From NCBI GenBank assembly GCA_033032175.1, contig CM065329.1, positions 11,910,985-11,974,984 of the forward strand: DNA of 64,000 bases, in the 5' to 3' direction. This stretch comes from Saturnia japonica. Taxonomy: Eukaryota; Arthropoda; Insecta; Lepidoptera; Saturniidae. Below are positions 6,274 to 27,730 of this stretch, one piece after another; positions within the stretch are counted from its first letter, which is position 1, and each line of letters starts with the position of its first letter. The notes under the pieces were generated by a model. That model ran no database searches. It was not told where the DNA came from and worked only from the letters and a program-made list of their open reading frames with translations. A program made the translations under genes and the position numbers.

Positions 6274-7506
6274 TCAATTAATTTCGGTTATATAAAACAG
6301 TCCTTGTACCGAATGCGCCCGGTCCATATGTTTCTTTAGCTCGTGTTTCCTTACAAAAGACGCCGTACATTGTACACAGTGCAACTTAACCCCTTTGTTG
6401 TGCTTCCGTTTGGCGTGCTCGCTTCTCCGCGACGCCGATATGAAACACTCGTCACAATCTTCACACTTGTACGGCTTCTCGCCTGTATGACGTCGCTTGT
6501 GATACACTGCGGCCATCCTAGTCACTAATTTCACTCCACATATATCACATTCGAAGTTCCTAGCGCGCGTGTGTACGACCGTATGCTCCGCGAGGCGGGC
6601 CGGCGTGTAAAACCGCTTCCCGCACCATTGACATTCGTGAGGCCTAACGTCCATGTGGATCCATAATATATGGTTTTTCAATTGCGGTCGAGACGTGTAC
6701 GTTTTACCGCAATAGTCACACGTGTAGTTGGCCAAATCGCGAATGTTCGATCTGCGATTGCGAGGTAACTGCGTGAGGTCAGGCTTCGCGTCCGGTTCAC
6801 ACTGAGACCTGTGCTCTCTATAACAGCCTCGGTTCGTGAACTGAGTCCCGCACGCCCTACATGTACGCACCATATGCATTTGGGCATGGTGATCAAACGT
6901 CACCTTTCTAGGAAAACTCCTCCCGCAGTCCGTACACGTGAAGGAGCCAGGTTTGTGACACCTCGCTACGTGTTCAGCCAAGTGAGTTTTTTCGGGAAAT
7001 AATAAGGGACAATCGGTACATAGGAGCACGTCGGTGCCGTGTACCGATTTCATATGTTCCTTCATTTTCTCACCGCGAAGGATAACCTCTCCACATATGA
7101 CGCACGCTTCCTTTTGCCCACTATTCATTAAGTGCATAGCTAAGTGGTGAGGACTCGAAAATATTTTCTCACAGTCCGGACAACTACAAGATGGCCCCGC
7201 ACGGTCGTTCCGCGGTTTTCTCCTAACAGGTTTTTTAGTCACAACCGCCCTCAGCCTGTCGAGTATCGTTTTGGGATCGCTGGCGTAGTCTTTTACCGTT
7301 TGTATGACAATGTCGTTTGGATGTATGAACGCACATAAGGATTTCATTGGGGTCGAAACAGTGAATGGCAAGGCGTTGAGACCGTTTACTGCTTTCGTCC
7401 ACACTTTCTGTGATGATTGAACGAAAGTGCGGAATTCGCCGGCCGCTAGCGCAGCGCTTACACAATTAACGCATGCGCCTTTTGGGCATAGTGACTCTTC
7501 GTGAAT
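6274..7506 (-). CDS. ZAD/C2H2 zinc-finger locus, alternative terminal exon 4 (distal)
   Basis: Terminal exon of 410 codons plus stop. It begins after a TTTCAG acceptor in phase 0, so an internal start is not needed. The first residues are the second half of a ZAD: LCPKGACVNC, GEF, then VW. A linker follows (residues about 45-100), then about ten zinc fingers: CPDCEKIF..H, an ACVICG finger, CTDC, CTDCGRSF, a C2HC finger (CRACGTQF..C), then five classic C2H2 fingers, one followed by the linker TGEKPY. The N-terminal half of the ZAD, including the CRIC pair, is not in or just upstream of this exon. The 1.5 kb upstream contains a LINE fragment and repeats only. It probably joins the ZAD exon at 19396-19581, giving a 472-aa DNA-binding factor. 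It could instead be a decayed gene that lost its 5' end, but the frame is fully open. Confidence 0.85.
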   Translation of the reverse strand: MHEESLCPKGACVNCVSAALAAGEFRTFVQSSQKVWTKAVNGLNALPFTVSTPMKSLCAFIHPNDIVIQTVKDYASDPKTILDRLRAVVTKKPVRRKPRNDRAGPSCSCPDCEKIFSSPHHLAMHLMNSGQKEACVICGEVILRGEKMKEHMKSVHGTDVLLCTDCPLLFPEKTHLAEHVARCHKPGSFTCTDCGRSFPRKVTFDHHAQMHMVRTCRACGTQFTNRGCYREHRSQCEPDAKPDLTQLPRNRRSNIRDLANYTCDYCGKTYTSRPQLKNHILWIHMDVRPHECQWCGKRFYTPARLAEHTVVHTRARNFECDICGVKLVTRMAAVYHKRRHTGEKPYKCEDCDECFISASRRSEHAKRKHNKGVKLHCVQCTASFVRKHELKKHMDRAHSVQGLFYITEIN

Positions 7507-7589
7507 CTGAAATGTTTCACAGTTAATTAATAAACATTAAGAAATTCAATAAGGCTAGTGTTCCCAAAGTAAATAAGTATCAAGAAGAA

Positions 7590-8290
7590 CTGGAGCAAGT
7601 GACTGTGTTTGTACACTTAGGATCGATGTTTACTAGGGATGGAAAGTGTAGAAGTAATATTGAAAGGAGAGTAAACACTGGGAAAATTGTGAATGGGGCG
7701 TTGCACACCTTTTTGAACAGCCATAAAATTTCTACGAAAGCTCGTCTGGTTGTGCATAGAGGAGTGTTGGTTCCAACAGGAGAGAAAGATGGGTGTGGCA
7801 AAAAAGCATGAAAGTAAAATAAATGCAGAAGAAATGAGAGCGTTAAAAAATATGTTAGGAGTGAAATTGAGTGACAGAATAAGTAATAGTGTGTTAAGAA
7901 AACGTTGTGGTGTAAAAGAAGATATAGTAACATGGATTGAGAGTGGGATGCTTAGATGGTTTAAGGGTGAATTAAAGAAGAACGACTGAACAGATTTATA
8001 GGCCGAGCGTGAATGAAAACGTTAGAGGAAGAAACGAACGTTTAACGATCAAATCGGGGACGTTCTGAAAAAAAGTTAGGTCAAGAGTACTCTAAACCGA
8101 CGAGCATGCATGAAAAGACTAATGAATGTTGAAGAATCGAAAGATGTATGCCAGGATCGTAGCAAGTGGAAGGACGTGGTCCTATCCTAGCCCGTTGGGA
8201 AAGAGGCGTGATTTATGTTTCCAAAGTATGCGCCGAGGCAAGCTGAGGCGCTGCATGGAGTAAGCAGCGGTGAATCAGAAAGTAAATTTC
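7590..8290 (+). mobile_element. LINE fragment (reverse-transcriptase C-terminal region), frameshifted
   Basis: Two overlapping frames encode LINE-type segments: VFVHLGSMFTRDGKCRSNI..RRVNTGKIVNGALH and STKARLVVHRGVLVPT in one frame (7599-7811), then KKHESKINAEEMRALKNMLG and GMLRWF in another (7750-7989). The join near 7780 lacks the usual LMYGSESW segment, so there is a small internal deletion. Further homologous sequence runs to about 8220 ('gcaagtggaaggacgtggtc'). A related fragment lies at 35230-35640. It sits in the presumed long intron of the zinc-finger locus. Confidence 0.8.
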
Positions 8291-8399
8291 AATAGTTTTT
8301 ATGAATGATTTTAAAATAGAATTTATGCAGGTAACATAATATAATAAAAGGAAACAAGAAACCCAACTGCAACACAATCACATATTTTTTTCCTATTTT

Positions 8400-8560
8400 T
8401 GCTTTTTATTTGAATCCCAAAAGACGTACTTAAATATTATATAGCCTATGTCACTTCCACAATGAAGACGAATCCAACGACACCTCGTATACTAAAATCC
8501 TTCAAGCTGTTTAGGCTACAAAGCGTGACAAAGAAGTAGACATACATACATACGCTCGAA
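8400..8560 (+). repeat. Dispersed repeat shared with 15610-15760
   Basis: The block 'cttaaatattatatagcctatgtcac' through 'agcgtgacaaagaa.tagacatac' recurs at 15610-15760 with few changes. It is typical of tails of Lepidopteran non-autonomous elements. No coding potential. Confidence 0.6.
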
Positions 8561-8935
8561 AGACATAACCCTCCTTTTCGTAGTCAGGTAATAAAATAGA
8601 CATTTTTTATTTTTGTTACCTTTAATACAAAGCTATCTGTAATGAAATGCGTTTACGGATGTTCAAATAATACTAACGAAATTAAATTTTATCGGTCTAA
8701 GTTTATCTCAAACTATTAAAAAAAGGTTTATTGATTGATTTTTTTGCAATGGCTACATTACTGAATCTATATTGCATAATGATTCCCGGTTATAGTATAA
8801 TCGAAATAATTGTAGACGCCAAGACTTTTCAATCGAGTTGTTTTTCAATTGTATCGATATAACCATAAAGCGTAGAAAGCTAAGGTGCACGGTGCTGTCG
8901 GGAACCGAATACAATTGAAAAATTAAACAATCGAC

Positions 8936-8941
8936 TTTATT
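8936..8941 (-). terminator. Poly(A) signal after zinc-finger terminal exon 3
   Basis: AATAAA on the minus strand, about 36 bp beyond the stop codon at 8977. It supports the exon at 8977-10209 being a true transcript end. Confidence 0.5.
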
Positions 8942-8976
8942 CACTCAAAGATGCACATCATTAATCTTACTAGTGT

Positions 8977-10209
8977 CTAACATTTCATCTTAAACCGTCT
9001 CTTCATGGGACCATCATTCGTCTTCTTGGGCACATTAATCACATCGAAATGGACAGATAAGTAATGCTTCTTCAATTCCCAAGGCCTTACAAATCTAGCA
9101 GAGCATTTGTCACAAGCATGTGGCATTTCCGTCGTGCCCCTGTGCCTTCGCTTCACATGATCCAGTCGTCTAGACGCTGAAAGGAATCGATCTCCACAAA
9201 TCTCACACTCGTAAGGACGTTCTCCGGTATGGATTCTCTGATGCAACTGATAACCCAGTTCCGTGCGCATTTTTGCTCCACAATAACATTGGAAGATTTT
9301 CCGCTCTTCCCTGTGAGTCTTTTGGTGAGACTTCAAATGGCCAAGCGTCGACGTTCGCTTCCCGCACTCTTGACAAGTAAACGGCAGCACATTAAGATGC
9401 TTTTGTATTATATGTACCTTTAAAGATGGCTTCTTATTGTACTCTATATTGCAATAATCGCATATGAATACGGATTGTTTGGGTTCCGCTTTGATTTTAC
9501 ACTGCTTTTGGTGATATTTGAAACATTGTCTATTGTAGAAGCTGCTATTGCAGGATTTGCAATAGAACAGCGTATGAGAGTACATGTGGGCTCGCAGCGC
9601 CCTGCTGTTGTTGAAACCAAAGCCGCAATAGCCGCAGGAAAACGTGTTCGGACCGTGTGTCGATAACCAATGCTGCTCAAATTCATTTTGCTCGTTGAAC
9701 ACCGCGTTACATACGTAGCAATCTATTACGGTTATTCCGTGAATTCCCAATAGATGCTTATGCAAACTGTTCTTTGGTACAACGCTACCACATTTCCTAC
9801 AAGCTCTTTTCAATGAATTTCGAAGATGATGGTTGAGAAATTCAGGATTAGTAAAGTTCATCCCACAATCCGGACACACGCAATTTATTAGTTCGAAAAT
9901 GCGTTTAGCTCTTCGTGTGGGCTTCTCTGTCACTTGCGGTTCTCTGAATTTATTATTCAGTTTATTCAACGCTTCATCTGGATTTGATGCTACATTAACC
10001 TGATCAGTGACCATTGAGATGTCATTACCGAAGAACACATATAATGTTTTGTCAGAATCTGTGGGTTCTTGTATGTTGGCAAAACATGTAGTGGTCTTTT
10101 CCCATTGGATGTTCGATTGGAGGCATAGTTCTCTGAAGTGGAATGATGTAATTGTGTCTTCGGAACATCGTCGGCAGAGACCCCGCGGCAGGACCGTCTC
10201 GTCCACCAT
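8977..10209 (-). CDS. ZAD/C2H2 zinc-finger locus, alternative terminal exon 3
   Basis: Terminal exon of 410 codons plus stop, following a TTTCAG acceptor. The first codon is ATG by chance (MVDETVLPRGLCRRC), which could make gene finders call it a stand-alone gene. Its start aligns with the ZAD second half of the sister exons: LPRGLCRRC, FRELC, QW, then LYVFFGND. After a linker come about ten fingers in the same order as in the sister exons, including the C2HC finger CKSCNSSFYNRQCF..C and the TGERPY linker. The frame upstream of the acceptor does not continue it, and the 340 bp to the next exon hold no CRIC-type pair. It most likely splices to the ZAD exon at 19396-19581. Role: sequence-specific DNA-binding nuclear protein; targets unknown. 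Confidence 0.87.
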   Translation of the reverse strand: MVDETVLPRGLCRRCSEDTITSFHFRELCLQSNIQWEKTTTCFANIQEPTDSDKTLYVFFGNDISMVTDQVNVASNPDEALNKLNNKFREPQVTEKPTRRAKRIFELINCVCPDCGMNFTNPEFLNHHLRNSLKRACRKCGSVVPKNSLHKHLLGIHGITVIDCYVCNAVFNEQNEFEQHWLSTHGPNTFSCGYCGFGFNNSRALRAHMYSHTLFYCKSCNSSFYNRQCFKYHQKQCKIKAEPKQSVFICDYCNIEYNKKPSLKVHIIQKHLNVLPFTCQECGKRTSTLGHLKSHQKTHREERKIFQCYCGAKMRTELGYQLHQRIHTGERPYECEICGDRFLSASRRLDHVKRRHRGTTEMPHACDKCSARFVRPWELKKHYLSVHFDVINVPKKTNDGPMKRRFKMKC

Positions 10210-10499
10210 CTGAAACGACGTCAGGTTTCAGTCTGCCCGTTTCCATTTTAATCTCCAACACATAGTAAACACCAATTTTTTTATGTAGAGTAGTGTAAAT
10301 AAAATATAATTTACGCAATGGCTGTAGACCAACTATTATTGTGCAATATAGTTTATCCGGAAAAAATAATTTCATTTCCTTTGTACCGACGTACTGTAAA
10401 AGTTGATCTACGTTTTACGTTTTTTGTTTTTGTTTTAATCAACAAAGAAAATAAAGAATTTCAAGTATCAATTAATCAAAATTCGAATAATTGTAGTAT

Positions 10500-10505
10500 T
10501 TTAAT
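10500..10505 (-). terminator. Possible poly(A) signal after zinc-finger terminal exon 2
   Basis: ATTAAA on the minus strand, about 45 bp beyond the stop at 10549. It is a weaker variant signal but well placed. Confidence 0.35.
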
Positions 10506-10548
10506 CGCTATATTAAACAACGTACATTAATTTAAAAAACGAGTGCCT

Positions 10549-11646
10549 TCATATATGAGATATACTGATAACATCGTGCTTGACATTTAAATGATTTTCG
10601 ATGCTTTTCTTTTGACGATAATCTTTCATACATATAGGACATTTATATTTTGTTTTCTTCACACCCTCCCACCTAATATGTTGTTTGTTGACGTGCCTTT
10701 CGTAACCTCGCCTCGAACTGAACTTAGATCCGCAAATTACACATAAGTACCTATCCGTAACTTTATTGTGAGTGTTATCATGCTCTGCTAAATGCACACG
10801 ACTGAGAAACTTCTTCCCGCATTTGTCGCACTGATACTGTTTTCCCGCCATATGATTGTAAATGATGTGCAGTTTTAGGGCGTTCCTAATCTTATATTCC
10901 TTGTTACAGTAGTCGCATACGTATGCCACTGATTTCTCTTTAATATAAGCACAATTACGGCCGTGACGTAAATAGCAAATTTTGTTCGAGAACTTTCTAT
11001 TGCATCCTGAACATATCGCAGATTTATGTTTGAACATGTGAGCGACAAGGTTGCTCTCTGTCGCGAAAGTTTCCTTGCATTCGACGCAAACGTGATTTCC
11101 CTTGTGTTTCGACATGTGAATATTGAGGGACGAATTTCTACTAAACACTTCAGAGCAAAAATTACAGGGGAAAATTGTTAATTGATGAGTCTTCAAATGA
11201 TCTCGAAAGACGTCGAGTTCCAAAATCATATTGCAATGGACGCACATTTTCTTGCCGATATTCTTTATATGAATATTGAATTTCATTATATTATTGAAAC
11301 TCGTTTGACATTCAGGGCAAACCAGTTTTACCCCGTTCTTCCTCACTGGATTCATTGCATCGCTTCTACAAATTTTTTGCACATTAAACTTATTATAACC
11401 TAAGTTACGTAACGCGTCCTTGACGGTTTTACTTTTTTTCGAACATGTATAGGTATGTAAGCCCTTAGATGCGATGACGTACAAACTTCTAGTCTTTTTA
11501 GGCACATTAATATCTTTCAAATAGAGGGTGATACTTTTCCAATGTCCGACAGATTCCGTGCAGAGTTGTATGAAAGGAACAAAGTTCATTATCTGTGCGA
11601 GGCATTCTTTGCACATTTTATTTGGCAGAATAGCGGACGTCTCCAC
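10549..11646 (-). CDS. ZAD/C2H2 zinc-finger locus, alternative terminal exon 2
   Basis: Terminal exon of 365 codons plus stop after a TTTTAG acceptor, phase 0, first codons GTG GAG. The ZAD second half is LPNKMCKEC, then FIQLC and HWKSI, with the downstream strand SLYVIASKG. The finger array follows the sister exons: CPECQTSF, CVHCNM, CNFCSEVF, CVECKETF, C2HC CSGCNRKFSNKICY..C, CDYCNKEY, CDKCGKKF, CVICGSKF, CPICMKDY. It is shorter than its sisters by one C-terminal finger. No start codon is needed if spliced to 19396-19581. It stands 340 bp from the next exon. Confidence 0.87.
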   Translation of the reverse strand: METSAILPNKMCKECLAQIMNFVPFIQLCTESVGHWKSITLYLKDINVPKKTRSLYVIASKGLHTYTCSKKSKTVKDALRNLGYNKFNVQKICRSDAMNPVRKNGVKLVCPECQTSFNNIMKFNIHIKNIGKKMCVHCNMILELDVFRDHLKTHQLTIFPCNFCSEVFSRNSSLNIHMSKHKGNHVCVECKETFATESNLVAHMFKHKSAICSGCNRKFSNKICYLRHGRNCAYIKEKSVAYVCDYCNKEYKIRNALKLHIIYNHMAGKQYQCDKCGKKFLSRVHLAEHDNTHNKVTDRYLCVICGSKFSSRRGYERHVNKQHIRWEGVKKTKYKCPICMKDYRQKKSIENHLNVKHDVISISHI

Positions 11647-11954
11647 CTAAAACAATATTTCTTCATGTACTCAAATGTCAATTCATCAATTCATGGTTAC
11701 AGAATTTCATAAATATGAAAATGTTTATGAATTTCAGAATTTATGTTTGTGTGAATCGAAAACAAAATATTTATATTTGAGAATTATGTGGTTGTTGCAA
11801 CCTTTATAACTCTGACGGATTATTTTGTCAATATTGCAACACTAAAGTGTATTTACTTGATAATGTAGTACAATGCAGTGTTTGTGCATACGGAGCATTA
11901 GATGATTGTTGTTTTAAAAAAGTTGTCTTTTAAATGAATGTTTAGCTGTTAGTC

Positions 11955-14900
11955 TACCTAATCTATACATATAATAAAAACGTAACTGATCGATGTCTGT
12001 ACATAGAAGATATATGAGAAAAACTATTGTCGGGGGTCTCTATCAACGCAGGAGAACCCAAAACAATGATTGTTAGAATTTTTGTCTGTTTGTCTGTTTG
12101 CCAACTTTTGTGCATTGCAACAACATTTAGTGTTTGTTTTACTTCAATAAGTTAATAAATAAAAAAGTTATATCAATTTAAAAAATCACGTCGAACATTT
12201 TTTTGATAAAAATGCTATAAAATAGCTCTTCAGTTGAATTGACAGAAATTTTAGTTATCTGTATATTATGGTTTGTAAAACGATGATGATCGAAACCTTT
12301 CATAAAGTTAAAAAATGAAGAGTTTAAAAATTGCATATTCCAATATAAGTTGACCTCATATCTATGTGATAAATCATATTAGAAGGGGGTCAACTTAGGC
12401 TGGATAAAGATCAGTTGAATATAGCTGCGCCGCTGCTAGGGATGGCAATTCATTTCGAAAAAGATTGATTCGAATCGAACTCTCATGATTCGATTCGCAA
12501 AAAAATCGATGTCTAAAAGATCGATCTCTCAAAAATTGATCTGTTTTCGATTCACTTTTGCATTTGTATTAACAATATAAAAAACACTAAAACAGAAAAT
12601 TAAAACGGAAACACAACAGTCGATCTTTTGTAATTTTTACCTTACTAAAGTATCAGTTATTACAGAGAAACATAGAAAGGTATAGAGAGAGAGAATTTAT
12701 TACAGGTATATAGGGAAAGAGAATTCATTTTAAAATTTTATTATTATAAACTGTTGTCGTTATTTTGCTGTTGGGTAATAATTTACAGTAAGTATTTTAA
12801 TTGGTAAATGACACCATAGAAAATGACTGTATAATGAATTGAATAATCCATACCTACTAATATTATACATGCGAAAGTAATTCTGTCTGTCCCGTCTGTT
12901 GCATTTTCAAGTTTAGACCGCTGAACCAATTTTATAGAACTTTGGTTGAGAAAGGTCATAGGCTACTTTTGGAAATAAAATTGGAAGGGGTTAAATGGGG
13001 GGGTGAAATGGGTGGTAAAAGTTCGTATAAAGAACCTAATTTTGATGAATTTTGATATAGAGATATGTAGGAATTTGGAGAAAGACTTTGGCTACCTTAT
13101 GTGGTGTAAATAAAACTATAATGGGTGAAATAGAGGTTGAAGGTTTGTACGAAGGACCCGTTAAACTAATTTTGATGAATAGAGATATATTAGACCTTGG
13201 AGACGGACATCGGTTACCTTATGGCGCAAAGATAAAACATTAAGGGATCAAATAGAGGATGAAATTTTGTACGAAGAACCCACTATTTCTCAATTTTGGG
13301 ATATGAAAATTCATATTTATGCAAAAACGAATCGGCAGGGTGGTACAATAAGAGATGATTTACAATACCATACACATAGAGTGATAAATCCATCTATGAT
13401 TTTCCATTGCTTTATCGTGTTTTGAGATCAGTCGGTGTATATGTATTAATATAGTGGGGTGGTAGGGATCGCGACCACCATATCTACATCTATACATATA
13501 ATAAAAGCGTAACTGATCGATGTCTGAACATAGAATATATATGAGAAAAACTATTATTGGGGGCCTTTATCAACGCAGCAGAACCCAAAACAATGAGTGT
13601 TAGAATTTTTTTGTTTGTCTGTTTGTCTTTTTGCCAACGTTGGTGCGCGCTAATCTCAGAAACGGCTTAACTGATTTGGAAACGGTTTCAACTAATATAT
13701 TTTGGTAAGGTTAACTTAACATTTAGTGTTGGTTTTGCTTCAATAAATTCATATATAAAAAAGTTATATCAATTTAAAAAATCACGTCGAACATTTGTTC
13801 GATAAAAGTGCTATAAAATAGCACTTCAGTTGTATTGTCTGAAACTTGGAAACTGGTTTGTAAAATGATGATTACATAAAGTTAAAAAATGTACAGTTTC
13901 AGAGACCTTGGAACTTTCCAATATGAGTTGACCTTACATCTATATAATAAATCATATTAATAAGTGGGTCACCCTAGGTTGGATATAACCACGCAAGCAA
14001 GTCGAGTGCCGCATCGCTGCTAGGCAATTCATTCCGAAAAAGATCGAATCGAATCAAACTATGATTTATCGATTCACAATAAATCGAGGTCTAAATAATC
14101 GATCTCTCCAAAAAATCAACCTTCTTTTATTCACTTTTCAGATTTGAGTTAACAATATAAAAATGTCTATTATAGAAAACAAACAGAATAATGGAACGAA
14201 TAATCCATACTAATATTATAGATGCGAAAGTAACTCTGTCTGTCCTGTCTGTTGCACTTCACGCCCTGAAATAGACGATGAAGGTTTGTACGAAGAACGC
14301 ATCAAACCGAATTTGATGAATTTTGGTATAGAGATATATTGGACCTTGAAGAAAGACATTGGCTTACCTTATGTCGTGAAAATAAAACTTTAAGAGGTGA
14401 AATAGGGGATGAAATTTTGTACGAAGAACCCACTATTTCTAAATTTAGGGATATGAAAATTCATATTTATGCTTTTAGGAAGAAATAACAGTATTTCGTG
14501 TTTTAAAAAATAAGGGTGATTTACAATACACATAGGACTCCACCCCTTGATACTAAGCAAAATGTTCCTGAGACATGCTTACATTATACAAAACATATGT
14601 CCATCCTATTAAGACATATAAGCTGCGCTACATTCGCACATGCGTCAAAGATCAACATTAACAAATTCCAAATCCTCCAAACCCGATTCTTACGTAAAAT
14701 TAACAAAGCCCCTTGGTACGTTGGTCGAATCGTATATTAAATATCTTACGCGATCGTACTTTCGTATACGTAAATATAATATTCCACAAAAATATTGTTC
14801 TTTAGTATATCTAAAAAAAGTCTCCGATAACATATGCCTATTTCTTAATAACATAAGCCACTATAAGGTATTTTGCGAGTTTTTATGTTGAAGATTAAAA

Positions 14901-15160
14901 ATTGAGCTATATTTTTAGGCTTATCATATTAATCCTTACGAACAAAGTTATTTCATCATAAAGACAATTTAAATTTTTCTTTTTATTGTATGTAATTAGG
15001 AAACATATTATAGTTTAGGAGAAAATGAAAAATTAAAATAATTTGTACTTGCGGGAAATGATAACAATTATGATAGACTACACGGGTCCGTCGCGTTGGC
15101 GGCGCTTTATTTGTTGGATAAAAACTCGGGTGAAACCGAGGGGCACAGCTAGTAAATAAA
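11955..15160. mobile_element. Cluster of non-autonomous Helitron-like repeats
   Basis: Two copies of a block starting 'tctatacatataataaaa.cgtaactgatcgatgtctg' (about 11965 and 13490) are each followed by 'tactaatattata.atgcgaaagtaa..ctgtctgtc' (about 12855 and 14205). A 'gggtgaaaccgaggggcacagctagta' end lies near 15130-15155. These arrangements are common in Lepidopteran genomes and usually assigned to Helitron-like elements. The CTAG-type end fits, but I see no Rep/helicase. The exact borders of each copy are not resolved. Confidence 0.5.
14520..14745 (+). pseudogene. Jockey-like LINE reverse-transcriptase fragment
   Basis: An open frame ends with INKFQILQTRFLRKINKAPWYV, matching the 'LQ..QN..LR....APW.V' segment just after the reverse transcriptase of Jockey-clade LINEs. 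It is a short remnant lodged within the Helitron-like cluster. Confidence 0.6.
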
Positions 15161-15315
15161 TATGACTGAAATTTCTATAACGACTCTTTCCTAGCACTCC
15201 TTGTGTAAAAAAATCTTATTAATATGGCCGTTGTGTATATCCTCAATTCTGCCAACGTCGAGTGAATAGTAAATTTTTCTACGTAATCTTTTACTAAACA
15301 AACATATATCTCTAA

Positions 15316-15545
15316 AAAGATGGCGGATATCTTTTTAAAACTGCCTCGGGAGTTTTGGTGGCAACTTAAAATGCATGCTGCTAATTATTATTTATAATCC
15401 ACTTCACTTATGCACAAAAACAAAAACTACATCACGTTAAATGACGCCAAAATTACATAACATTGGCCAAAATACAATTTTTTATGAATATAATATTAAA
15501 CCATCACACGACAGTTTAAGATCCCGCTAAGACCCTGGAGAAAAA
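15316..15545 (-). mobile_element. Short (GAA)n-tailed retroposon, partial copy D
   Basis: Matches the 5' two thirds of the family at 22188-22518: 'aagatggcgg', 'ccacttcacttatgcacaaaaac', 'acatcacg', 'agatcccgc'. The GAA tail is missing. Confidence 0.6.
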
Positions 15546-15559
15546 TAAGCAAAATTATT

Positions 15560-17310
15560 ATAAAGGAAGCAAAAAACCAGATTGCACAAAAACACTTGAG
15601 TAAAAAAAATATTCATCCTTTTTATTTGATTCTCAAACGTCTTACTTAAATATTATATAGCCTATGTCACTCCCACAATTACGACGAATTCAACGACATC
15701 TAGTATGCTAAAATCCATCAAGCCGTTTAGGTTACAGAGCGTGACAAAGAAATAGACATACTACCCTTGCGCAATAAGTTGAGACCTGGGGAGCGGTGAC
15801 GTCACAGACGCATGGTTGTACTGTGCACAAAAAATATCATAACAAGTTTCCACCCGCGACTTCGTCTCTGCTATTTTTCAACGTGGCTTTCGAAACTCCC
15901 GTTGCCATACAGTTTCTTTTTACTGCCTGATCAACAGGTAAACACAACTGTTTGTTCCATTTTTCGTTTTCAAAAAAGTCCAACACTTTTAACAAGAGAT
16001 TTCTCTCTCCACTATGTAAGTTTTACCCTTCATTATAACAATAAACTTAACACAAAAAATAACAATAAGATATAGCAGTAACTCTAATAACTATTAACGA
16101 AACAGTATCAAATAAGATTATAAAATCGGAGCGCGTCATCGTTACGTGACGTAAACCAGTACGAGACTAAGATTTAAAAAAAATGGCGTTGCCTTCAGTA
16201 CAATGAAGCTTTAGGGGAAGTTACAGAACGGGCAGAGGGTTGCATTCCAGGCAAGTCCCAACTTATCGCGCACGGGTAGTACATACATATGTAATTTCTA
16301 ATTAATCCTTTTAACTGACTTTATGATAATTTAGACTACAGGATCCAAGCATTTTAAAGAGTAACTACTTTTTTTTAAATTCACAAAGTACCTTATCAGT
16401 AGTATACACGTGTATAGTTTTACTTACAAAAAGATATGACAATTGTAATGACGGGCTGAATGGCGCGTAACAATAAATTACTATTAACAAATTAGTATAA
16501 GAGAACATTATTATCCCTTGTTGAGTGAGGAATTACGTGTATAAAAGTCAAGAAGAAAAGTCATAAAGTCATATGTGTATCAAGTATATAACACCCTCCC
16601 CAAATATAAAATTTTTATCCTTAGTACTTTCGGCTGGGCGATTGTGAGTCAAACACGACAATGACTGTTATAAATATATTTATAACAGTCAGCCACTTCC
16701 ACGAGCGAGTTTATCGCGGCGATATTATCGTCCTACCACTTCATTCTATAAGAACTCTATGAACGTGACTCTAAAACGCCAACGACTCGCTGCGACAACG
16801 AATTGACCTACTAATAGCGCGCTCGTTGCATAACGTGAAGCGCTCTCGCCCTTCTAAAGCCCGCCCAGAGCATTTCGCTTATTGACATTACTGAATGTCG
16901 CTCTTGCCTGTCACCGAACTGAGCTATTTTAAACACAATTACTGTGTAACGAGTTCTTGCGGATCCGCAGTAAACAGTAGCGACTCGCGGCGAGTCATCT
17001 CCATTCGCGACGATACGCTGACGGTAAAATAATCGTCTCGGGGACGTGACCCGATAATATCAGTGGCGCACTTGTGGCGATACACTCGCTCGTGACTTAG
17101 GCGACTAAGATCTAAGATACGCATTGAAGAGGCAAAAAGGTAAATATTGTTATGTGGCATCTCTGCAATCTTGTTATGACGTAAACCCCTTCCATGTAAC
17201 CCACACCTTAAACACTCATAGAAACTATAACACAGTTTGATTCTACACTATGTGCCTAAGTAGTATAGTTAAACATGTATAGTTATTGGTCGTACATAAT
17301 GCACATCAGC
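15560..17310. other. Repeat-rich sequence inside the presumed zinc-finger intron
   Basis: Holds the repeat shared with 8400-8560 (about 15610-15760) and a perfect 30-bp palindrome at 16662-16691. A GC-richer stretch from 16690 to 17160 has several CGCG-type words. No gene recognised. Confidence 0.4.
16662..16691. repeat. Perfect 30-bp palindrome
   Basis: Starts TGACTGTTATAAATA and is its own reverse complement over 30 bases. It could be the centre of a foldback element or a cruciform-prone site; no function is claimed. Confidence 0.7.
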
Positions 17311-17470
17311 TAAAGAGGGAGATAATCGCCTACTTTCGGATTCGTAGAGCATTGTCTCTGTCACTCAGTACATTATGTGACGTTTTGTCGCTTTCAAGCA
17401 CTGTTAGTGCTCTGTGTGACAGAGACGACGCTCTACGAAACTGAAAGTAACTGATTATCTCCTTTTTTAA
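17311..17470. mobile_element. Hairpin MITE with long terminal inverted repeats
   Basis: The left arm 'gagataatcgcctactttcg..ttcgtagagc.ttgtctctgtcac' is repeated inverted on the right ('gtgacagagacgacgctctacgaaa' to 'gattatctcc'). Arms are about 50 bp with few mismatches, and TA flanks both sides. About 155 bp long. Confidence 0.7.
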
Positions 17471-17541
17471 CTGTACCTGTGCCGGTAACTGTAATGGGGT
17501 TATTACATGGCAGGTATATCGCAGCCGATTTTGGTGCATAC

Positions 17542-17547
17542 TTTATT
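17542..17547 (-). terminator. Poly(A) signal after zinc-finger terminal exon 1
   Basis: AATAAA on the minus strand, about 90 bp beyond the stop at 17636, consistent with the transcript ending here. Confidence 0.45.
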
Positions 17548-17635
17548 CTGTCGTATTTTTGTGTCTTGGTGTTTCAACATCAAATAAATATTATTACTTT
17601 CTTTCACAGATGGTAAGTTATATCTTAATGACTGC

Positions 17636-18967
17636 TCATTGACTGTGATTTGATCTATTATGTACCAAAAGAGATCTCAAGCTAGCAAATTTTATATTGC
17701 ATTCACTACATTTATAAAGCCCACAACTCTTGTTAGAATGTACTGTTGATATGTGCTTCTTCAAACGATAAGGTAGCCTGAATTTTGCTGGACAATATTC
17801 ACAGGCTTGCTTTAAAACTATTTCTGAACTCCTGTGTGCTTTTCTTATATGTTCTGATCGTCTGGATGAAGCACTGAAGGATTCACCACATAACTTACAC
17901 ACGTAAGGCTTTTCACCTGTATGTAACCGTAGATGCTGACTATATCCTAATTTAGTTTTTAGAACAACTCCACAATGTTCACATTTGTAGCTTTCCATTA
18001 TTTCATGCTTCTTAATGTGAGTTGTCATGTGTGCAGCGGCTAGAAGCTTACCACAGTACACGCAAGGCCTGTGAGTGTTTTTAAGGTGGACTATTTGGAT
18101 GTGTGTGGCTACAAATTTCTTCTTGGAAAACTTCTTGTTACAATAATCACAATAACATTCCGTGTCTGCACTGCCTCGTAGGCCTACTTTAACTTGTTTG
18201 TCATTAGTTTTAACTAATACTGATAACTTGTGACTTGTTTGATGTAAGTCTATTCTATTTCTGTCCAAGTTACAGCACTTTTTAACATGGTGAAAATAGC
18301 ATGTTTGGTTTCGGAAGAGTTTAGAGCAACCGGGGCAATTTTTCGGTGTATGCACAGATAAATGTGCATTGTAACCATAGGTCGACTGGAAGCTACGTCC
18401 ACAATCACCGCATGTAGTTGCTCCTGCAGTGTGAGCTATCAATAAATGTACTTTATACTGTTGTGAAGATAATAACAATGCCGGACACTTTTTACAGTCA
18501 TAAGGTTTTTTGTTATGTATTTTGGTTAAATGTTGGACCAAATCATCACGTGACATAATACAGGCACATACATAACATGCACGTTTTGAATCTGATGATT
18601 CCTTCAAGTGCTTGTATAAATCATGAGCATAAATGAAATTTTTTCCACAGTTTGGACATTGACAGTGTAAACTTTTCATATAGTCTTTTCTTTTTGTATC
18701 TTTCACCTTTGATAGCCTGGTTGGTGCTGCCAACTGCTTCTCATCTTCTTTATGTTCTACAAAAGATATATGATCTTCCACCAATATAGCATAAACTTTT
18801 TTTGTATTTAAATCATGTTTATAATCTGGTATAGTTTCAAGCATATTAACAGTGTATTTCCAATGTTCAGATGCTCGTTGGCAGAGTTTACGAAATTCAC
18901 CTGCTTGAAAGGCTAATATGTAGCAAGTGGCACACAGCCCGTTGGGCAGGTCACCATCCACAGGCAC
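17636..18967 (-). CDS. ZAD/C2H2 zinc-finger locus, alternative terminal exon 1 (proximal)
   Basis: Terminal exon of 443 codons plus stop after a TTGCAG acceptor, first codons GTG CCT GTG. It is nearest to the ZAD exon, 428 bp away, and joins it in frame (ITGVE|VPVDGDLPNGLCATC), giving a 505-aa protein. The second ZAD half has LCATC, GEFRKLC and HWKYTV, then KVYAILVEDH. Fingers follow: CPNCGKNF, a CYVC finger, CKKC, CGDCGRSF, the C2HC finger CPGCSKLFRNQTCY..C, a linker of about 45 residues, CDYCNKKF, CVYCGKLL, CEHCGVVL, TGEKPYVCKLCGESF, CEYCPAKF, CSECNIKF. It carries one more C-terminal finger than its sisters. Product: ZAD-type zinc-finger protein, presumably a nuclear transcription factor or architectural protein. 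Confidence 0.9.
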   Translation of the reverse strand: MPVDGDLPNGLCATCYILAFQAGEFRKLCQRASEHWKYTVNMLETIPDYKHDLNTKKVYAILVEDHISFVEHKEDEKQLAAPTRLSKVKDTKRKDYMKSLHCQCPNCGKNFIYAHDLYKHLKESSDSKRACYVCACIMSRDDLVQHLTKIHNKKPYDCKKCPALLLSSQQYKVHLLIAHTAGATTCGDCGRSFQSTYGYNAHLSVHTPKNCPGCSKLFRNQTCYFHHVKKCCNLDRNRIDLHQTSHKLSVLVKTNDKQVKVGLRGSADTECYCDYCNKKFSKKKFVATHIQIVHLKNTHRPCVYCGKLLAAAHMTTHIKKHEIMESYKCEHCGVVLKTKLGYSQHLRLHTGEKPYVCKLCGESFSASSRRSEHIRKAHRSSEIVLKQACEYCPAKFRLPYRLKKHISTVHSNKSCGLYKCSECNIKFASLRSLLVHNRSNHSQ

Positions 18968-19395
18968 CTGCAATGATGGTGTTGGTCAAATGGCCACATT
19001 TTCATCTTCTATGGAAGTCTCATAACATAAATTCTTTTATATTTTTCATTTTTAATAATTTTAGAGTTTATAAAGCCAGTTGACACTATTATAATATAGA
19101 TAAAATGACGCTATCTCCGTAAACGCATTACATCCGATCCAAAGAATTTGTTAAATTTAGTTAAATATCATAGATATAATATAATTAAAAGTTATGCATA
19201 TAAATTTAATTTAATGAGTAAAAATAATAGATTCGACCTCAAAATGTAGCTCTTAATTATAGAAATATTTTTTTATTGAAATCACTTTTTCGCCATCTTG
19301 GCTCATGGTGCGCGGGAATAAAACCGTTCCGTTTTCCACAGAAAATAAACAAATGCACAATTTTGAGGTCGTATAGAATATTGAATTTTGATTAC
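18968..19395 (-). other. Intron between the ZAD exon and the proximal zinc-finger exon
   Basis: Bounded by GAG|GTAATC (donor) and TTGCAG|GTG (acceptor). AT-rich and repeat-poor. Confidence 0.7.
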
Positions 19396-19581
19396 CTCAA
19401 CACCCGTTATAGTTTCCAGTAGCTCGGCGAGAGTTACTGCCTTATCTCCATTTATCATTACATTATCGCCGAGAAAAACTCTCCCTTCCGATGTATCACC
19501 CATACATATACGGCATTTGTCTGCACCGTCACCTCTGACTATATGTGAAATTAACGCCTTCACGTCTACTTGACGATCCAT
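19396..19581 (-). CDS. ZAD exon: shared first coding exon of the zinc-finger locus
   Basis: Codes for 62 residues from ATG 19581. It contains the first zinc pair of a ZAD (C23-R-I-C26) and then GDNVMINGDKAVTLAELLETITGVE, the usual beta/alpha segment. It ends at a phase-0 donor. The second cysteine pair (C74..C77) is supplied by the next exon, so the ZAD is split by an intron. ZADs bind one zinc through four cysteines and mediate dimerisation. It is the only ZAD 5' half I find upstream of four compatible acceptors (18967, 11646, 10209, 7506), all phase 0. Sharing by alternative splicing is inference. Confidence 0.88.
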
Positions 19582-21838: not shown

Positions 21839-22187
21839 TTAACAGTAGGTGCTTCTTAAATTTAATAACTTAACAATATTTTTGCAATGAAAATTAAATT
21901 TATTATTTAATAATGATTTTGTTAATATATCTGCAGTTTGTTTATCAGTAGGACAATATTTAATATTTATTTTACCCTTTTTATAATTTTCATGGATGAA
22001 ATAGTACCTCACAACAATGTGTTTGGATCTCTTATTGAATGAACCTGTTTTGATCAGTTGAATAGAGCTTTGGTTATCAACATTCAATATCACTTCAACT
22101 TCAGTACCTATCAACTCTTTTAAAAATGACTTTAAATATAAGCATTCCTTACAGTAATCAGCCGCTGCTATATACTCTGCCTCAGTT
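21839..22187 (-). pseudogene. Copia RNase H domain, C-terminal part
   Basis: Encodes ILNVDNQSSIQLIKTGSFNKRSKHIVVRYYFI and KYCPTDKQTADILTKSL, the standard end of copia RNase H. Split from its N-terminal part (22532-22695) by a 331-bp insertion. Confidence 0.88.
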
Positions 22188-22518
22188 CTTCTTCTTCTTC
22201 TTCCTAACTTGGCAACCGGTCCTCTTTAATGAAGATCATTACTGCCATTATTGAGTGAATTATAGTGTCATGTGTTATGACGATTCAGTATCCTAACAAG
22301 ACGGTGGCTCCCTTGTTTAAACTTTCTAGGAAGATTTTGTGGGACCTCTGAATGAATGCTTTCAGCTTATATTTATAATGCACTTCAATTAAGCACAAAA
22401 ACCAAACTATATCACGCAAATTACCACCAATATTACATAATACAGGGTCAAAAACCTAAGTTAATGATTTAAAAATAAAAACCACAACATGTCACTTCAA
22501 GATCCCGCGAAAAACCTC
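22188..22518 (-). mobile_element. Short (GAA)n-tailed retroposon, copy A, with 13-bp target duplication
   Basis: Interrupts copia RNase H. The 13-mer CTCTGCCTCAGTT stands on both sides (22175-22187 and 22519-22531), so the insert is 331 bp. On the minus strand it starts 'aggtttttcgcgggatcttg' and ends in (GAA)4. A variable-length duplication plus a 3' simple tail points to LINE-driven retroposition. Relatives: 4971-5288 (+), 57909-58236 (-), 15316-15545 (-, partial). Confidence 0.85.
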
Positions 22519-22531
22519 CTCTGCCTCAGTT

Positions 22532-22695
22532 GATGAAAAAGCTACAATTGGTTGTCGTTTTGAATACCAAGACACCGCTCCTTTTGCTAACATTATTAAA
22601 TATCCCGTTGTACTGCGTCTAGTTTCAACACAATTTGTATAATCTGCATCACAGTATGCATTTAGTTTAGAAATATGTCCTCCTTTCTTGTACAT
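22532..22695 (-). pseudogene. Copia RNase H domain, N-terminal part
   Basis: Encodes KLNAYCDADYTNCVETRRST, TGYLIML and SWYSKRQPIVAFSSTEAEE, including the catalytic DAD region and the STAEAEY-like motif, here STEAEE. Confidence 0.88.
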
Positions 22696-23065
22696 TATTC
22701 CTTTCTGTCTTTTTCCGTTTAAATATTTTCTTTGCAGCTATCACATCATCTTTTGTAAGGTTTTCTATTTTTCTGCTTGCTTTGTTCACAGCTTGACTTA
22801 CATATGGCCTTGTTCTTGTTATAGATAAGTATAGAAGTCCTCCTATCAGTTCTCTATATGGGAAGTTTGTAGTATGTGTTTTGTGTTTCTGTTTTCTTTT
22901 CTGTATTACAGGGTGTATTAACCGACTTACAATCTTTCATACTAAATTTCTTCAATAGATTTTCAATGTAGCTTTCTTGTTTCAGTGTAATAATACCTTT
23001 TCAGTCTTCTTAACTTCAAATCCAATAAAAGTAGTCAGATCTTTGTATAATTTTATTTCAAATTC
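22696..23065 (-). pseudogene. Copia reverse transcriptase, C-terminal part
   Basis: Encodes FEIKLYKDLTTFIGFEVKKTE and downstream segments (AIN..PYRELIGGLLYLSITRTRPYV), with stops. It is continuous with 24440-25094 once the two inserts are removed. Confidence 0.8.
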
Positions 23066-23523
23066 TGTGCGCGGACCACCACGCACATTGGGAAACAGCC
23101 ACCGGATTTTACTTAGAAGGCTGTTAGCGCTTAAGAATCTGTCGCCCCTATGACAGGAATTCTTATCTTTAGCCACGTACGCTCGTTCGTCCAGCCGATG
23201 GGAACGTCCTGGATGTGGTGTGATGAGCTGGAGTACGTGACGCACGCAGGTTTGCCCGATTCACTTTTACTGGTCACTAAAGAATTGCATGACGTCTGAT
23301 TGTTTGTATTTTGTAATTACATAGGTATTTCCCGTATTCACCTCGAGTCGCACGCAGTTGCATGCGCCGGCGAAGCTCGACACTTTCTGACTGACGCCAT
23401 TTACAACGGCGCCACGAAGACGTTGTGGTTGGACGGGACAGTATGAGCGCTTCACAACGCTCTGCTATTGGTTGAATCCCATCACATTAAGCGACAGATT
23501 CAATACCTTTTATGGTTACGAAA
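23066..23523. mobile_element. Unidentified 458-bp insertion in copia reverse transcriptase
   Basis: GC-richer block that splits EKEF|EIK of the reverse transcriptase. The 7-mer CAAATTC lies on both sides (23059-23065 and 23524-23530). No coding motif or long terminal repeat seen. The superfamily is unknown. Confidence 0.55.
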
Positions 23524-23561
23524 CAAATTCCTTTTCTAGGCAGTTTAAAATCCTTATTAAT

Positions 23562-24434
23562 TGTTGGGTACGCGTCACTTCCCCTCTGCGTGAGGGAGGG
23601 GGGGGGGTGTGACTTTTCCCCGGTTCGGACGGGCGTTTTGTTGCGCCGGATGCCCGTCTCGTGGATACCGTACGGATGCCAGTGGGTTGCGTGATGTTAG
23701 TAGTGAGTAGTGAGGGGGTCCGGGGGGTGCAATAATGCACGACCGCTTGAGGTGCCGGGTCTTCAATGAAAGTCGTAATCTTGTTGTTGACTGTTCGCAG
23801 GACGACCAAAGCTTTCTTCTCGTTGTTACTTGTTACTTGTACTTGTAGACTCGTTGAATTTGCACCGTGCCCAATACGGCCCCTCTTCGAGCTTAAGTAG
23901 TTCGAGGAATGACCGTAAAGAGAGCCCCGTTTTGTTCCGTGTTTATTTCGTGTTTTAACTTTAGTTTTCGCTCTGGTTGCCCTGTTAGTCCTTTTATATT
24001 TCTCTCATTATATATCTTATATACACATGTCATATATCAAAATGTTCCTCTCGGTATTACCTATCTATTACATATTCACTTATAATATACATTAAGTATA
24101 TATTCTGTATATAAGCCAAAAACAATGTAATTTACGGACGACATCACTATTTTCCGTCCGTAAAGTCTCTATAATATTCGATATACTTACTCTATGCGTT
24201 AATCTATTCTATATTAGTCATATTTTCACATATGTGACACACAATACATAATCGTTCATATATATCTTAATATATAACATGCAACTTGTAACGTAGCGTA
24301 TTCGCTTACATTTCTCTATAATATTGTCTGTATCAATCTATTTTATCGTAACACATAGTATATAACACGTAAACACAATAATATCACATATTAACCTAAC
24401 AAGAAACATGAAAATGACTGTTCTGTCGCCAACA
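23562..24434 (+). mobile_element. Solo LTR (copy 1) of an unidentified LTR retrotransposon
   Basis: 873 bp, TGTTGGGTACG...TGTCGCCAACA, ending in the inverted hexamer TGTTGG/CCAACA. It is flanked by the 5-mer TTAAT (23557-23561 and 24435-24439). The inverted sister copy is at 30764-31547. It lies in copia reverse transcriptase, between the helix upstream of EKEF and the YLDDG box. Confidence 0.88.
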
Positions 24435-24439
24435 TTAAT

Positions 24440-25136
24440 ATTAGTTTTTCTTTCGCCACAGCAAGTCCATCATCTAAATAGATTGCTATTATTGTTGTAT
24501 TATCTTCATTTGTGAACACACACTGATCTGTTTTAGTTGCTGTCAATCCAAGTTTTAACATTGCTTTTGTAAATCTTTTATTCCATGTAATAGGAGCTCG
24601 TTTTAACCCATATATGGATTTCTTTAATTGACCGACTTATCCAGGCTGATTTTCATATCCATATGGTATATTCATATACACATATTCTTCCAGCTCTCCA
24701 TACAAGAACGCGGTCTTTACGTTGAATGTCATCATGTTATAGTCTTTAGAAGCAGCAAGTGCAAATAAAGATATTAAAGTTGACTGACTGACAACTGGAC
24801 TGTAAATTTCATTGTAGTCATTCTGTAAGTTGTAAGTTCATTCTGTTCAAATCCTCGTACGACAAGTCTAGATTTATATGTGCCATTTTCTTTCACACGA
24901 AATACCCATTTGTTTGTAAGTATTTTGTTATCTTTTGCTTCTTTCTTATCTACTATTTCCCAGGTATTATTGATTTCCAGGGATACCTTCTCCGAATTTA
25001 TAGCTTTTTTCCAGTATTCTCCCTCTTTGGATGTTACAGCCTCTCTGTAAGTAAATAAACTGAAGTCGTTTAGGTAAGTTAGAATCTGTTTCATTCTCTT
25101 ACTTCTTTTTAGGTTACCTTCTTCTTCATTGTGACT
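24440..25136 (-). pseudogene. Copia reverse transcriptase, N-terminal part with YLDDG box
   Basis: Encodes AINSEKVSLEINNTWEIV, LTNKWVFRVKENGTYKSRLV and, further on, IIAIYLDDGLAVA (minus strand about 24460-24500), the catalytic YVDD equivalent. Contains internal stops. Confidence 0.88.
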
Positions 25137-25409
25137 CTATTTTTCTCTTTCTGTGTTTTCTATTTCAGTTGCGTCTTCAAGAGTGTTAAAAATTTTATTT
25201 TCTTCTGTTCTGGTATTTTGTGCTGTCTCCATGTTTTCTGGAGACTTTTCATGATTTTCTGTAGTCTCTTCTTGGTTTTCTGTTATCTCTTCTTGGTCTT
25301 CTGTTATCTCTTCTTGTTCTTCTGTTGTCTCTTCATAAATTTCACTAGTACTAATTTTTCTTTTCTTATAATTTTTTTTCTGTTGTTCAGTTTCACTTTT
25401 TATGATCAC
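25137..25409 (-). pseudogene. Copia acidic low-complexity linker between integrase and reverse transcriptase
   Basis: Repetitive Glu/Thr-rich segment (EEITEDQEEITENQEETTEN). The DNA shows a tandem 'tcttcttgg.tttctgttatc' repeat. This matches the variable spacer between copia integrase and reverse transcriptase. Confidence 0.75.
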
Positions 25410-25457
25410 TATGTCCCTTGATATCTCTATTTTTCTCTCCTTGGCATTCCACAGTCT

Positions 25458-26004
25458 TTACCCATTATTAGTGTACCCACTCATTAATAGTTTCCTGCTT
25501 CTAGGATCTAGTTTCTTTACATTTGAATGTAACTGTTTTGCATAGACAGTAGAGCCAAACTTTTGCATATTAGATATATTAGACTTTGTTCCAACCCACA
25601 TTTCATATGGTGTTTTATTTTTTAGGGCATCATTTGGCAGTCCATTTAAAATATAAGTAGCACAGTATATAACTTCACCCCACATTTCCTTGTCTAATTT
25701 AGAATCAAAGAGTAATACTGTTGTCTTTTCTAACAATGTCCGGTTTAGCTGTTTGGCTTTGCCGTTTAATTGTGGCGAGTATGGCACTGTGTAGTCTAAT
25801 TTTATACCTTTTTGATGACACCATAGTTTAAAGTCGTTACTTGTATATTCGCCTCCGTTGTCACACCTTATAGTTTGTACTTTACTATTTTTCTCTTACT
25901 CGGTTTCTTCAATATAATTTTGAATTTCTTCTTTTACATCGCTCTTGTTCTTTAGTAAATATATCTTTGTAAAATGACTGTATTCATCCAATATTGTTAA
26001 TACT
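25458..26004 (-). pseudogene. Copia integrase core
   Basis: Encodes TILDEYSHFTKIYLLKNKSD, a stop, RCDNGGEYTSNDFKLWCHQK, YTVPYSPQLNGKAKQLNRTL and NKTPYEMWVGTK. These include the catalytic D, the DNGGEY box and the usual NG..ER region (here GKAKQLN). Confidence 0.88.
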
Positions 26005-26238
26005 GTACGGGACGCACCGTGCTACAATATTAGTATACTTAAACTAAAGCGTTTGCATACGCCGCGCATTGTGTTCCTTTTAAGCCAGGTTTAGTTATTA
26101 TATGTATTTATTCAGTGTTTGTTTGAATATAGCATCGACGACACTCATTCGGGAAGTTTTATTTATCATCCCCGAATCTATCATCACTATCATAACTGTT
26201 AGGTACGAGCCCCTACAAATACATATCTGTAACTATCA
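26005..26238. mobile_element. Short unidentified insertion/deletion in copia integrase
   Basis: Foreign AT-rich stretch replacing the codons between IIHTD and the TILDEYS box. No target duplication or terminal repeat resolved. Confidence 0.4.
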
Positions 26239-26765
26239 TGAGTCTCCGTCTGTATGTATTATTTGTAGGTTTCTTTCTACCCGAGTTCTAGTTGTATTAA
26301 ATGGTAGCCTTGACTGTTTAGCTTCTGCACATATTTCACACTGTTCTTGTAATATTTTTGGGCCTCGTATATTTCTGCCATCTGCCACTTTTGTTAGTGT
26401 CTCTAGTACCGATTTTCCTGGGTGTCCCAGTTTTGCATGCCATTCCAATGCTGTTCCTTTTTTTTTTGTTAATAAAGATTTATTTTTTCATTTGGCAGCT
26501 CATATTTTAAATTCACTGTGTATAAACCATTCTGTTTTTTCCCACTTAAAATTAAATTGGAATTTATATAAATCTCCACTTTATTCTTTGTGAACACCAC
26601 AGAGCAATAATTATTAGTAACACAATTAAAAGATAAAAGATTTTGTGCTAGGCCTGGTATTAATAAGGTATTTTGTAAATCACATGACATTCCTTGGACT
26701 CTACCTGTTCCTTTTGCTTTCATTTTTTCTTTGTTGGCTGGGTAAGCCCCAGAATTCAAAATCAA
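26239..26765 (-). pseudogene. Copia GAG-pre-integrase region
   Basis: Encodes EWHAKLGHPGKSVLETL, CEICAEAKQSRLPFN and, before them, QNTLLIPGLAQNLLSF and KNKVEIYIN, the standard zinc-binding HHCC region. One frameshift. Confidence 0.85.
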
Positions 26766-27257
26766 AATTCAAATCAATCTCTTCAAAATTGCTTAAGATT
26801 CCGGGGTAATTTGTCATATGCACCGTGCTTCCAGAGTCTACTATGAATTTTACTGAGTTCTGTTCAGAATTTTGTGTCAGAAAAGCAACACTTTTAGATT
26901 TTTTATTATCACCTTTTTTTTAAAGAAACAAGTTTCCTCTTTATGGATATATTTCTTACAAATGGTGCACCAACTGCTTTTTAATTTACAATCTTTCTCT
27001 TCATGGTTGTATCTTTTGCAAATAATGCACATCTTACAATCCTTTTTTAGATGGCCTATTTTGTGACATTTAAAACATTTTATGTTTTTATTCTCCGCTT
27101 TAAAAGCAACTTGTTTGTGCTCAGTTTTCCTTTTTAAAAATTTTTCTTCTGATAAGAGCCTGTTAGTTAAATTGGTAAGTGTCTTTTTATCATCCTATGT
27201 TGATTCCCATGCTGTGATGAAGAATTTATACTGACTTGGTATGTAGGTTAATATTTT
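26766..27257 (-). pseudogene. Copia zinc knuckle and protease region
   Basis: On the minus strand it reads KCFKCHKIGHLKKDCK (CCHC knuckle) and later VKFIVDSGSTVHMTNYPG (the aspartic protease DSG box). Frames are broken by an A-run indel near 26915. Confidence 0.85.
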
Positions 27258-27689
27258 TTATATCACCATATCGTCATCAATGTTTTGGTTAAGATTATGT
27301 AATCTCATTCTCAAATTTTCAATATCCATGATCAATTGTGACATTGACTGATTTTCATATTGAAACTTATAGAAATCTTGTAACAAAGAATACTTATTTC
27401 TTTCTTCAGTCCCTTCAAATACTGCACATAGTTTACTATACATTTCATGTGCATTTCTGCAATTTATTATATGCCCTTTTAGCTTTCTATCTATGGAATT
27501 CAATATCAACTTCTTTACCTTTGCATCCTTAATTTGAAATTCTGGTTTTCCTATCTTTTCTGGGTCTGTTTCTTTCAATACTTCCGATAGGTTAGATGCT
27601 GATACATGTATATTAAACTCAAATTTCCACATGTGAAAATTCTCAGAGTTAGTAAGTTTTTCAATATTTTCTTCTTGGTTATTAGTCAT
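27258..27689 (-). pseudogene. Copia gag N-terminal region
   Basis: 143 codons from ATG 27689: SENFHMWKFEFNIHV, then IINCRNAHEMYSKLCAVFEG, LQDFYKFQYENQSMSQ and MDIENLRMRLHNLNQNI. This is the UBN2-type gag of Ty1/copia elements. Open, but cut by a stop after IDDDMVI. Confidence 0.88.
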
Positions 27690-27730
27690 TTTTCCTTCTT
27701 TTTTCCTAAGTATATTTTTATTGGCACTGT

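Follow-up and report, generated by a model that had tools for sequence, protein, structure and literature searches.

One ZAD exon and four zinc-finger ends: a lepidopteran gene that very probably encodes four transcription factors

A 64,000-nucleotide stretch of the Saturnia japonica genome (NCBI GenBank assembly GCA_033032175.1, contig CM065329.1, positions 11,910,985 to 11,974,984; hereafter the window, whose coordinates are used throughout) carries on its minus strand what is very probably one lepidopteran ZAD zinc-finger gene that gives rise to four transcription factors through alternative terminal exons. A transcript would begin at a single promoter upstream of 19581 and carry a shared exon 1, whose phase-0 donor would be spliced to any one of four large terminal exons, here called A, B, C and D. 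The chosen exon would complete the ZAD with the second cysteine pair and would add a long stem helix, its own C2H2 array and its own 3' end. The four resulting proteins would have the N-terminal half of the ZAD in common, and would differ both in the residues that contact DNA and in one half of the domain that forms dimers. The four terminal exons may compete with one another through their acceptors or poly(A) sites, and this competition would set the choice of end.

Results

Exon anatomy of the locus

The coding part of exon 1 (19396..19581, minus strand) holds the start codon and the first ZAD cysteine pair (CRIC) and ends at a phase-0 donor (exonic GAG, intronic GTAATC). It is translated into 62 amino acids (MDRQ...GVE), and an in-frame TAG lies 7 codons 5' of its ATG. 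By the structure model of a relative, protein P0055, a beta hairpin and helix 1 also fall within this exon. All four terminal exons lie on the strand of exon 1, and in each a C2H2 array comes after a second ZAD half: A (17636..18967) has 8 distinct fingers, B (10549..11646), the least conserved type, has 7, C (8977..10209) has 7 and D (6274..7506) has 9, as counted with a strict motif. They open after YAG acceptors that end at 18968, 11647, 10210 and 7507, respectively. Intron 1, from exon 1 to exon A (18968..19395), is 428 bp long, and the alternative introns leading to B, C and D span 7.7 to 11.9 kb. The joins of exon 1 to A, B, C and D are all in phase 0 and open to the stop, giving products of 505, 427, 472 and 472 amino acids with 365 to 443 open codons after exon 1. 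The second cysteine pair starts at residue 74 in all four joined products, the opening codons being aligned. Exon C opens with ATG in the window, whereas the 6 C relatives in the alignment have V or I at this place. This arrangement had been proposed in a sequence-only reading of the window, and its coordinates, the single exon with the first cysteine pair, the phase-0 donor and the four phase-0 exons with aligned second ZAD halves and finger arrays were all verified in the sequence.

The splice junction falls within the ZAD. Exon 1 alone scores 15.4 bits against the Pfam family zf-AD (PF07776), under the cutoff of 28 bits, and the array exons alone score 11.2 (A), 16.4 (B) and 15.1 bits (C), with no match listed for D. 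The joined products all pass, at 37.6 (A), 43.4 (B), 41.3 (C) and 35.9 bits (D). Their ZAD cysteines are residues 23, 26 and 74, 77, so that the pairs stand about 50 residues apart, and the Pfam scan placed zf-C2H2 in all four products; it reported no BTB domain in them, zf-AD being found instead. By zf-AD score, cysteine spacing and C-terminal array, all four joined products are members of the ZAD C2H2 family. A zf-AD match with an E value of 0.001 or better is likewise present in 30 of 30 aligned relatives that bear exon 1. The splice thus cuts the ZAD, and any exchange of fingers also exchanges the second cysteine pair and the predicted long stem helix. Since these two elements sit in the alternative exons, the dimerization domain is varied too. 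The initial idea of one ZAD exon, and with it one dimerization domain, is therefore right for the first half, which exon 1 does carry, but not for the second.

We then asked how many such exons the window holds. Profiles of exon 1 and of the second ZAD half, built from 30 relatives, were run over 2034 stop-to-stop pieces of at least 20 amino acids on both strands. The exon-1 profile has one convincing match, at 127.7 bits, with the next best at 11.5, and the second-half profile has four, at 45.7, 46.7, 48.0 and 55.2 bits, with the next at 13.0. No second first exon and no fifth array were found in the 64 kb by this profile scan, which strongly diverged exons, or exons beyond the ends of the window, could escape. 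The gaps between the arrays had been said to contain no second CRIC-type exon; this is borne out, and holds for the rest of the window as well. The 11.5-bit match to the exon-1 profile (19256-19396) was rejected: it lacks a CxxC in translation and in all likelihood reflects a fortuitous frame in intron 1.

Identical N-termini on different arrays in other moths

Three protein searches, with 120 of 1014, 28 of 28 and 120 of 349 matches listed, gave 205 different proteins, of which 103 were assigned to an array type by best score (46 A, 9 B, 7 C and 41 D). The closest named relative of the A product among the matches listed is a Manduca sexta protein with 66% identity. Exon 1 is carried by 33 of the 103 typed proteins (13 A, 5 B, 6 C and 9 D), among them P0004, in which it is present only from residue 27, and P0034, a fused model counted under D in which exon 1 meets C and then D.

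In each of seven moth species, residues 1-62 are identical between proteins that continue into different arrays (16 proteins). The arrays concerned are A, C and B in Manduca (the A protein coming from another assembly), A, C and B in Ostrinia, A and C in Amyelois, A and B in Achroia, D and C in Plodia, C and B in Anticarsia, and D and B in Cydia fagiglandana. These are all the species with more than one exon-1 protein among the matches listed. In each of the seven, at least two of the compared proteins are on equal-sized contigs, presumably the same contig. Names of the form 'isoform X' are borne by 15 of the 16 proteins, with numbers that differ within each species, and we infer that the isoform-named proteins of each moth belong to one gene. 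The search of relatives for the same one-to-many layout, suggested by the sequence-only reading, thus gives strong support for it. Saturnia japonica, too, probably makes use of all four ends. Listed carriers of exon 1 include Tuta, Cydia, pyraloids, noctuoids, Manduca, Papilio, pierids and Eumeta; since they span these groups, the one-to-four layout looks old within Lepidoptera, as judged from the protein records.

These data bear directly on a different explanation, that the locus is a row of four tandem ZAD genes with first exons of their own, three of which have diverged or been missed. ZAD genes often occur as tandem clusters in the Drosophila cucoid clade, according to the available part of PMC9810180, and the Achroia D protein (P0143) may be annotated as a separate gene. 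However, the 64 kb hold a single convincing match to the exon-1 profile, and the first 62 residues are identical, not merely similar, across arrays in the seven moths. We consider such a row of genes very unlikely.

Descent of the arrays and of exon 1

A tree of 34 array sequences, from which exon 1 had been removed, places A (12), B (6), C (7) and D (9) on four separate branches with SH-aLRT values of 99-100; it was made by a quick method without bootstrap, and one long B branch is flagged. The fused models P0004, P0023 and P0034 were omitted from this tree and from the exon-1 alignment, which uses 30 of the 33 exon-1 proteins. Exon 1 gives no signal of array type, its identity being 0.76 within types versus 0.77 between them (138 and 423 pairs, the between-type pairs including pairs from the same species, which share exon 1). 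The second ZAD half, over the same numbers of pairs, is type-specific, with 0.43 within versus 0.28 between. This is the pattern expected if one exon is common to all products and each of its four partners has a history of its own. By type, the mean pairwise identity of exon 1 is 0.71 to 0.80 versus 0.34 to 0.46 for the second half, and 21 of the 62 exon-1 positions are invariant in 30 rows. Such constraint, gauged against its own second half only, would fit one exon serving four partners. The second array of the Eumeta fused model P0023 scores nearly equally with all types (A 169, B 172, C 189 and D 179 bits); it was left unassigned, and may represent either a further, fifth type or one that has diverged strongly.

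Within the fingers, identity at the DNA-contact positions versus the other positions is 0.67 versus 0.57 in A and 0.70 versus 0.55 in C; it is slightly higher in D (0.68 versus 0.63) and equal in B (0.39 versus 0.39). The predicted contact residues differ among the four arrays of the window. The zinc ligands have a mean pairwise identity of 0.95 to 1.00 in each type. These figures also speak to the notion that only A, the nearest array, works and that B to D are decaying duplicated exons. A does have the shortest intron, and B is the least conserved type; yet all four exons are open over their full spans, the ligands are kept in every type, and B, C and D are all joined to exon 1 elsewhere, D on a contig of cDNA size (see below). 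It is hard to credit that three of the four exons are relics.

Joining of exon 1 to the arrays

In P0055 (469 amino acids), exon 1 runs directly into D on a contig of 1709 bases. Because exon 1 and D lie about 11.9 kb apart in the window, this contig looks like cDNA. Relatives without exon 1 were also inspected for traces of the acceptor. Among the 70 of them, 58 have a usable C..C motif and 26 have upstream residues; P0028, P0031, P0155 and P0156 were dropped, having been mislocated on finger motifs. A glutamine stands just before the junction in 20 of the 22 whose frame runs upstream, the exceptions being P0017 and P0122. This residue is what an in-frame CAG acceptor would give, and the count sees CAG acceptors only, because a TAG acceptor closes the frame. 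The proposed layout, in which the last exon is chosen, is strongly supported by the N-termini of the seven moths, the four array branches and the contig of P0055.

Joining in cis from one promoter is the most likely route, although the single promoter, put forward in the sequence-only reading, is an assumption and internal promoters may exist. The same four products could also arise by trans-splicing, with B, C and D, or all of the arrays, transcribed from promoters of their own and their pre-mRNAs joined to exon-1 transcripts. The introns to B, C and D are long, several NCBI models lack exon 1 and begin directly with an array (P0017 and P0143, both with isoform names, are among these), and mod(mdg4) is trans-spliced in insects including Bombyx (PMC4667647, in the part available). 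However, the arrays are on the strand of exon 1, and the direction and order of neighbours are kept in the fused models of four other species: A then C in Iphiclides, and C then D in Choristoneura, Danaus and Scirpophaga, as in the window, where alone the position of B is seen. Since the exons share a strand and the array order is consistent in other species, cis-splicing is sufficient, and we regard trans-splicing as rather unlikely.

Several observations weigh against one gene with four ends. Most of the typed proteins (70 of 103) are without exon 1; 57 of these are on lgn or jgi contigs (the lgn set presumably consisting of assembled read archives), and the other 13 come from NCBI. The NCBI records that open at the array include two with isoform names, P0017 (Galleria X2) and P0143 (Achroia X2). 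In Achroia, two records with different names are both called 'isoform X2': P0067 has exon 1 and the B array, P0143 the D array and no exon 1, so that the annotation there may treat D as a gene of its own. The moth proteins are database models, and tandem genes with identical first exons are possible in those species. The contig of P0055 could be a retrocopy. Lastly, the signals for splicing and polyadenylation are not clearly above chance. The sequence-only reading had noted poly(A) signals near three arrays, and hexamers (AATAAA or ATTAAA) do lie within 120 nt of the stop in A, B and C (at 89, 44 and 36 nt; 274 nt in D), but on this strand such a hexamer turns up in 26% of 120-nt stretches and in 52% of 300-nt stretches. 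The polypyrimidine tracts of A, B, C and D have 12, 9, 11 and 10 pyrimidines of 20, with a mean of 9.6 over 3478 AG sites. These motifs were dropped as support, and the case for the locus rests on protein homology. As for P0017 and P0143, they are either truncated models or real half-ZAD products.

Structure model and the ZAD dimer

The AlphaFold2 model of P0055 has a mean pLDDT of 75.6 and a pTM of 0.40, with values of 43 to 83 for the ZAD blocks. Strands 40-44 and 47-50 and helix 51-59 fall in the exon-1 part, and a 32-residue helix (75-106) falls in the alternative-exon part; the pLDDT is below 50 at residues 1-4, 8-25 and 28-30, which cover the first cysteine of the first pair. A Foldseek search of the model against the PDB listed 50 matches, all of them zinc-finger arrays. 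A sequence search of solved structures gave three weak matches (E 0.03 to 0.8), CG2712, LD30467p and LD15650p, which we take to be ZADs. The layout of the model, in which the start of the ZAD is modelled at low confidence, is in line with what is described for the Grauzone ZAD: helix 2 is long and forms the stem of a zinc globule, both cysteine pairs are needed for folding, and the dimer is antiparallel (available part of PMC5509000).

As reported in the accessible part of PMC5081699, the Grauzone dimer structure has a hydrogen bond between R5 and Q74, and Zw5 with R14G, the counterpart of Grauzone R5, still dimerizes. R24 of exon 1 is invariant in 30 aligned rows. If Grauzone R5 corresponds to the arginine adjoining the first cysteine, the locus would hold that residue constant and vary the stem. 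We infer that dimer partners differ between isoforms. A more specific proposal, which we offer tentatively and would not yet favour, is that a splice within the ZAD couples each array to a half of the dimer interface that belongs to it alone, the first cysteine pair and a common surface forming the constant half and the variable stem helix setting the pairing. Were this so, the four factors would be mainly self-pairing, or would pair in a set pattern, and would unite chosen pairs of DNA sites.

After the ZAD, residues ~119-152 of the P0055 model form a small strand-strand-helix element for which no Pfam family was reported. Similar sequence is seen by eye in arrays A-D of the window, and the element is possibly an undescribed linker domain, going by the model.

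Other features of the window

Elsewhere the window contains an exon of a TCP-1/cpn60 chaperonin subunit gene (44193-44564, plus strand; PF00118, 135.5 bits), a Mos1/mariner-type transposase with an uninterrupted frame of 369 amino acids (47800-48906, minus strand; PF17906, 37.1 bits) and a partial transposase piece (56047-56556, plus strand; PF01359, 84.6 bits). A copia-type retrotransposon gag with Pol_BBD lies at 49824-51113 (minus strand, Pfam scan), and copia-type pol-like frames were seen by eye at ~22000-28000 (minus strand). A tRNA scan of the window found none.

Discussion

The products described here are already present as isoforms in the public annotation of several moths; what the analysis contributes is the recognition of the layout and of the split domain. 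A literature search over titles and abstract openings, with many further matches unlisted, found no description of the locus, and ZAD or zf-AD does not occur in the available portion of the main text of a paper on silkworm C2H2 genes (PMC6613534). The multi-isoform zinc-finger loci of Manduca, Ostrinia, Achroia and other Lepidoptera are orthologous, with the same exon 1 and array types and no basic difference. The orthologues are annotated under unrelated names, such as zinc finger protein 39, OZF-like and XlCOF6. Gene counts and names for this family in Lepidoptera thus need care, as the four products go by names that have nothing in common, and a listed array that lacks exon 1 may come from an incomplete model. 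Four ZADs with an identical N-terminal half also constitute a natural experiment on the specificity of ZAD pairing.

With the insect ZAD-C2H2 genes (Grauzone, Pita, Zw5 and the cucoid clade), the locus shares an N-terminal ZAD that has two cysteine pairs and, by the model of P0055, a long second helix, as well as the C2H2 array that comes after it. It differs from the cucoid clade in its mode of growth: the Drosophila clade grew by tandem gene duplication, whereas here the terminal exons have multiplied behind one ZAD first half. In cucoid itself, alternative 3' ends shorten one array and do not swap arrays (for both points, the available part of PMC9810180).

A closer likeness in layout is to lola and mod(mdg4), which also have a constant 5' part with a dimerization domain and many alternative 3' ends, most of them with zinc-binding modules. 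In lola, constant exons encode a BTB domain and are followed by alternative 3' exons. In mod(mdg4), the BTB domain is N-terminal and encoded within the common 5' exon, and trans-splicing attaches some 3' parts that are encoded on the opposite strand (PMC4667647, as far as available, also for the zinc-binding ends). The comparison with these two genes, already drawn in the sequence-only reading, stands for the constant 5' exon and the alternative DNA-binding 3' exons, but not for a complete dimerization domain in the constant part, as the sub-cutoff score of exon 1 indicates. Three further differences stand out. The domain is a ZAD, not a BTB (zf-AD and no BTB in the Pfam scan), and nothing points to common descent; the splice divides this domain and makes its second half variable, whereas the BTB of mod(mdg4) remains whole; and all exons are on one strand, whereas mod(mdg4) has 3' parts on both. 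Altogether, the locus would be a ZAD counterpart to lola and mod(mdg4), in which DNA-binding ends are swapped on a shared dimerization part and half of the dimerization domain is replaced along with them.

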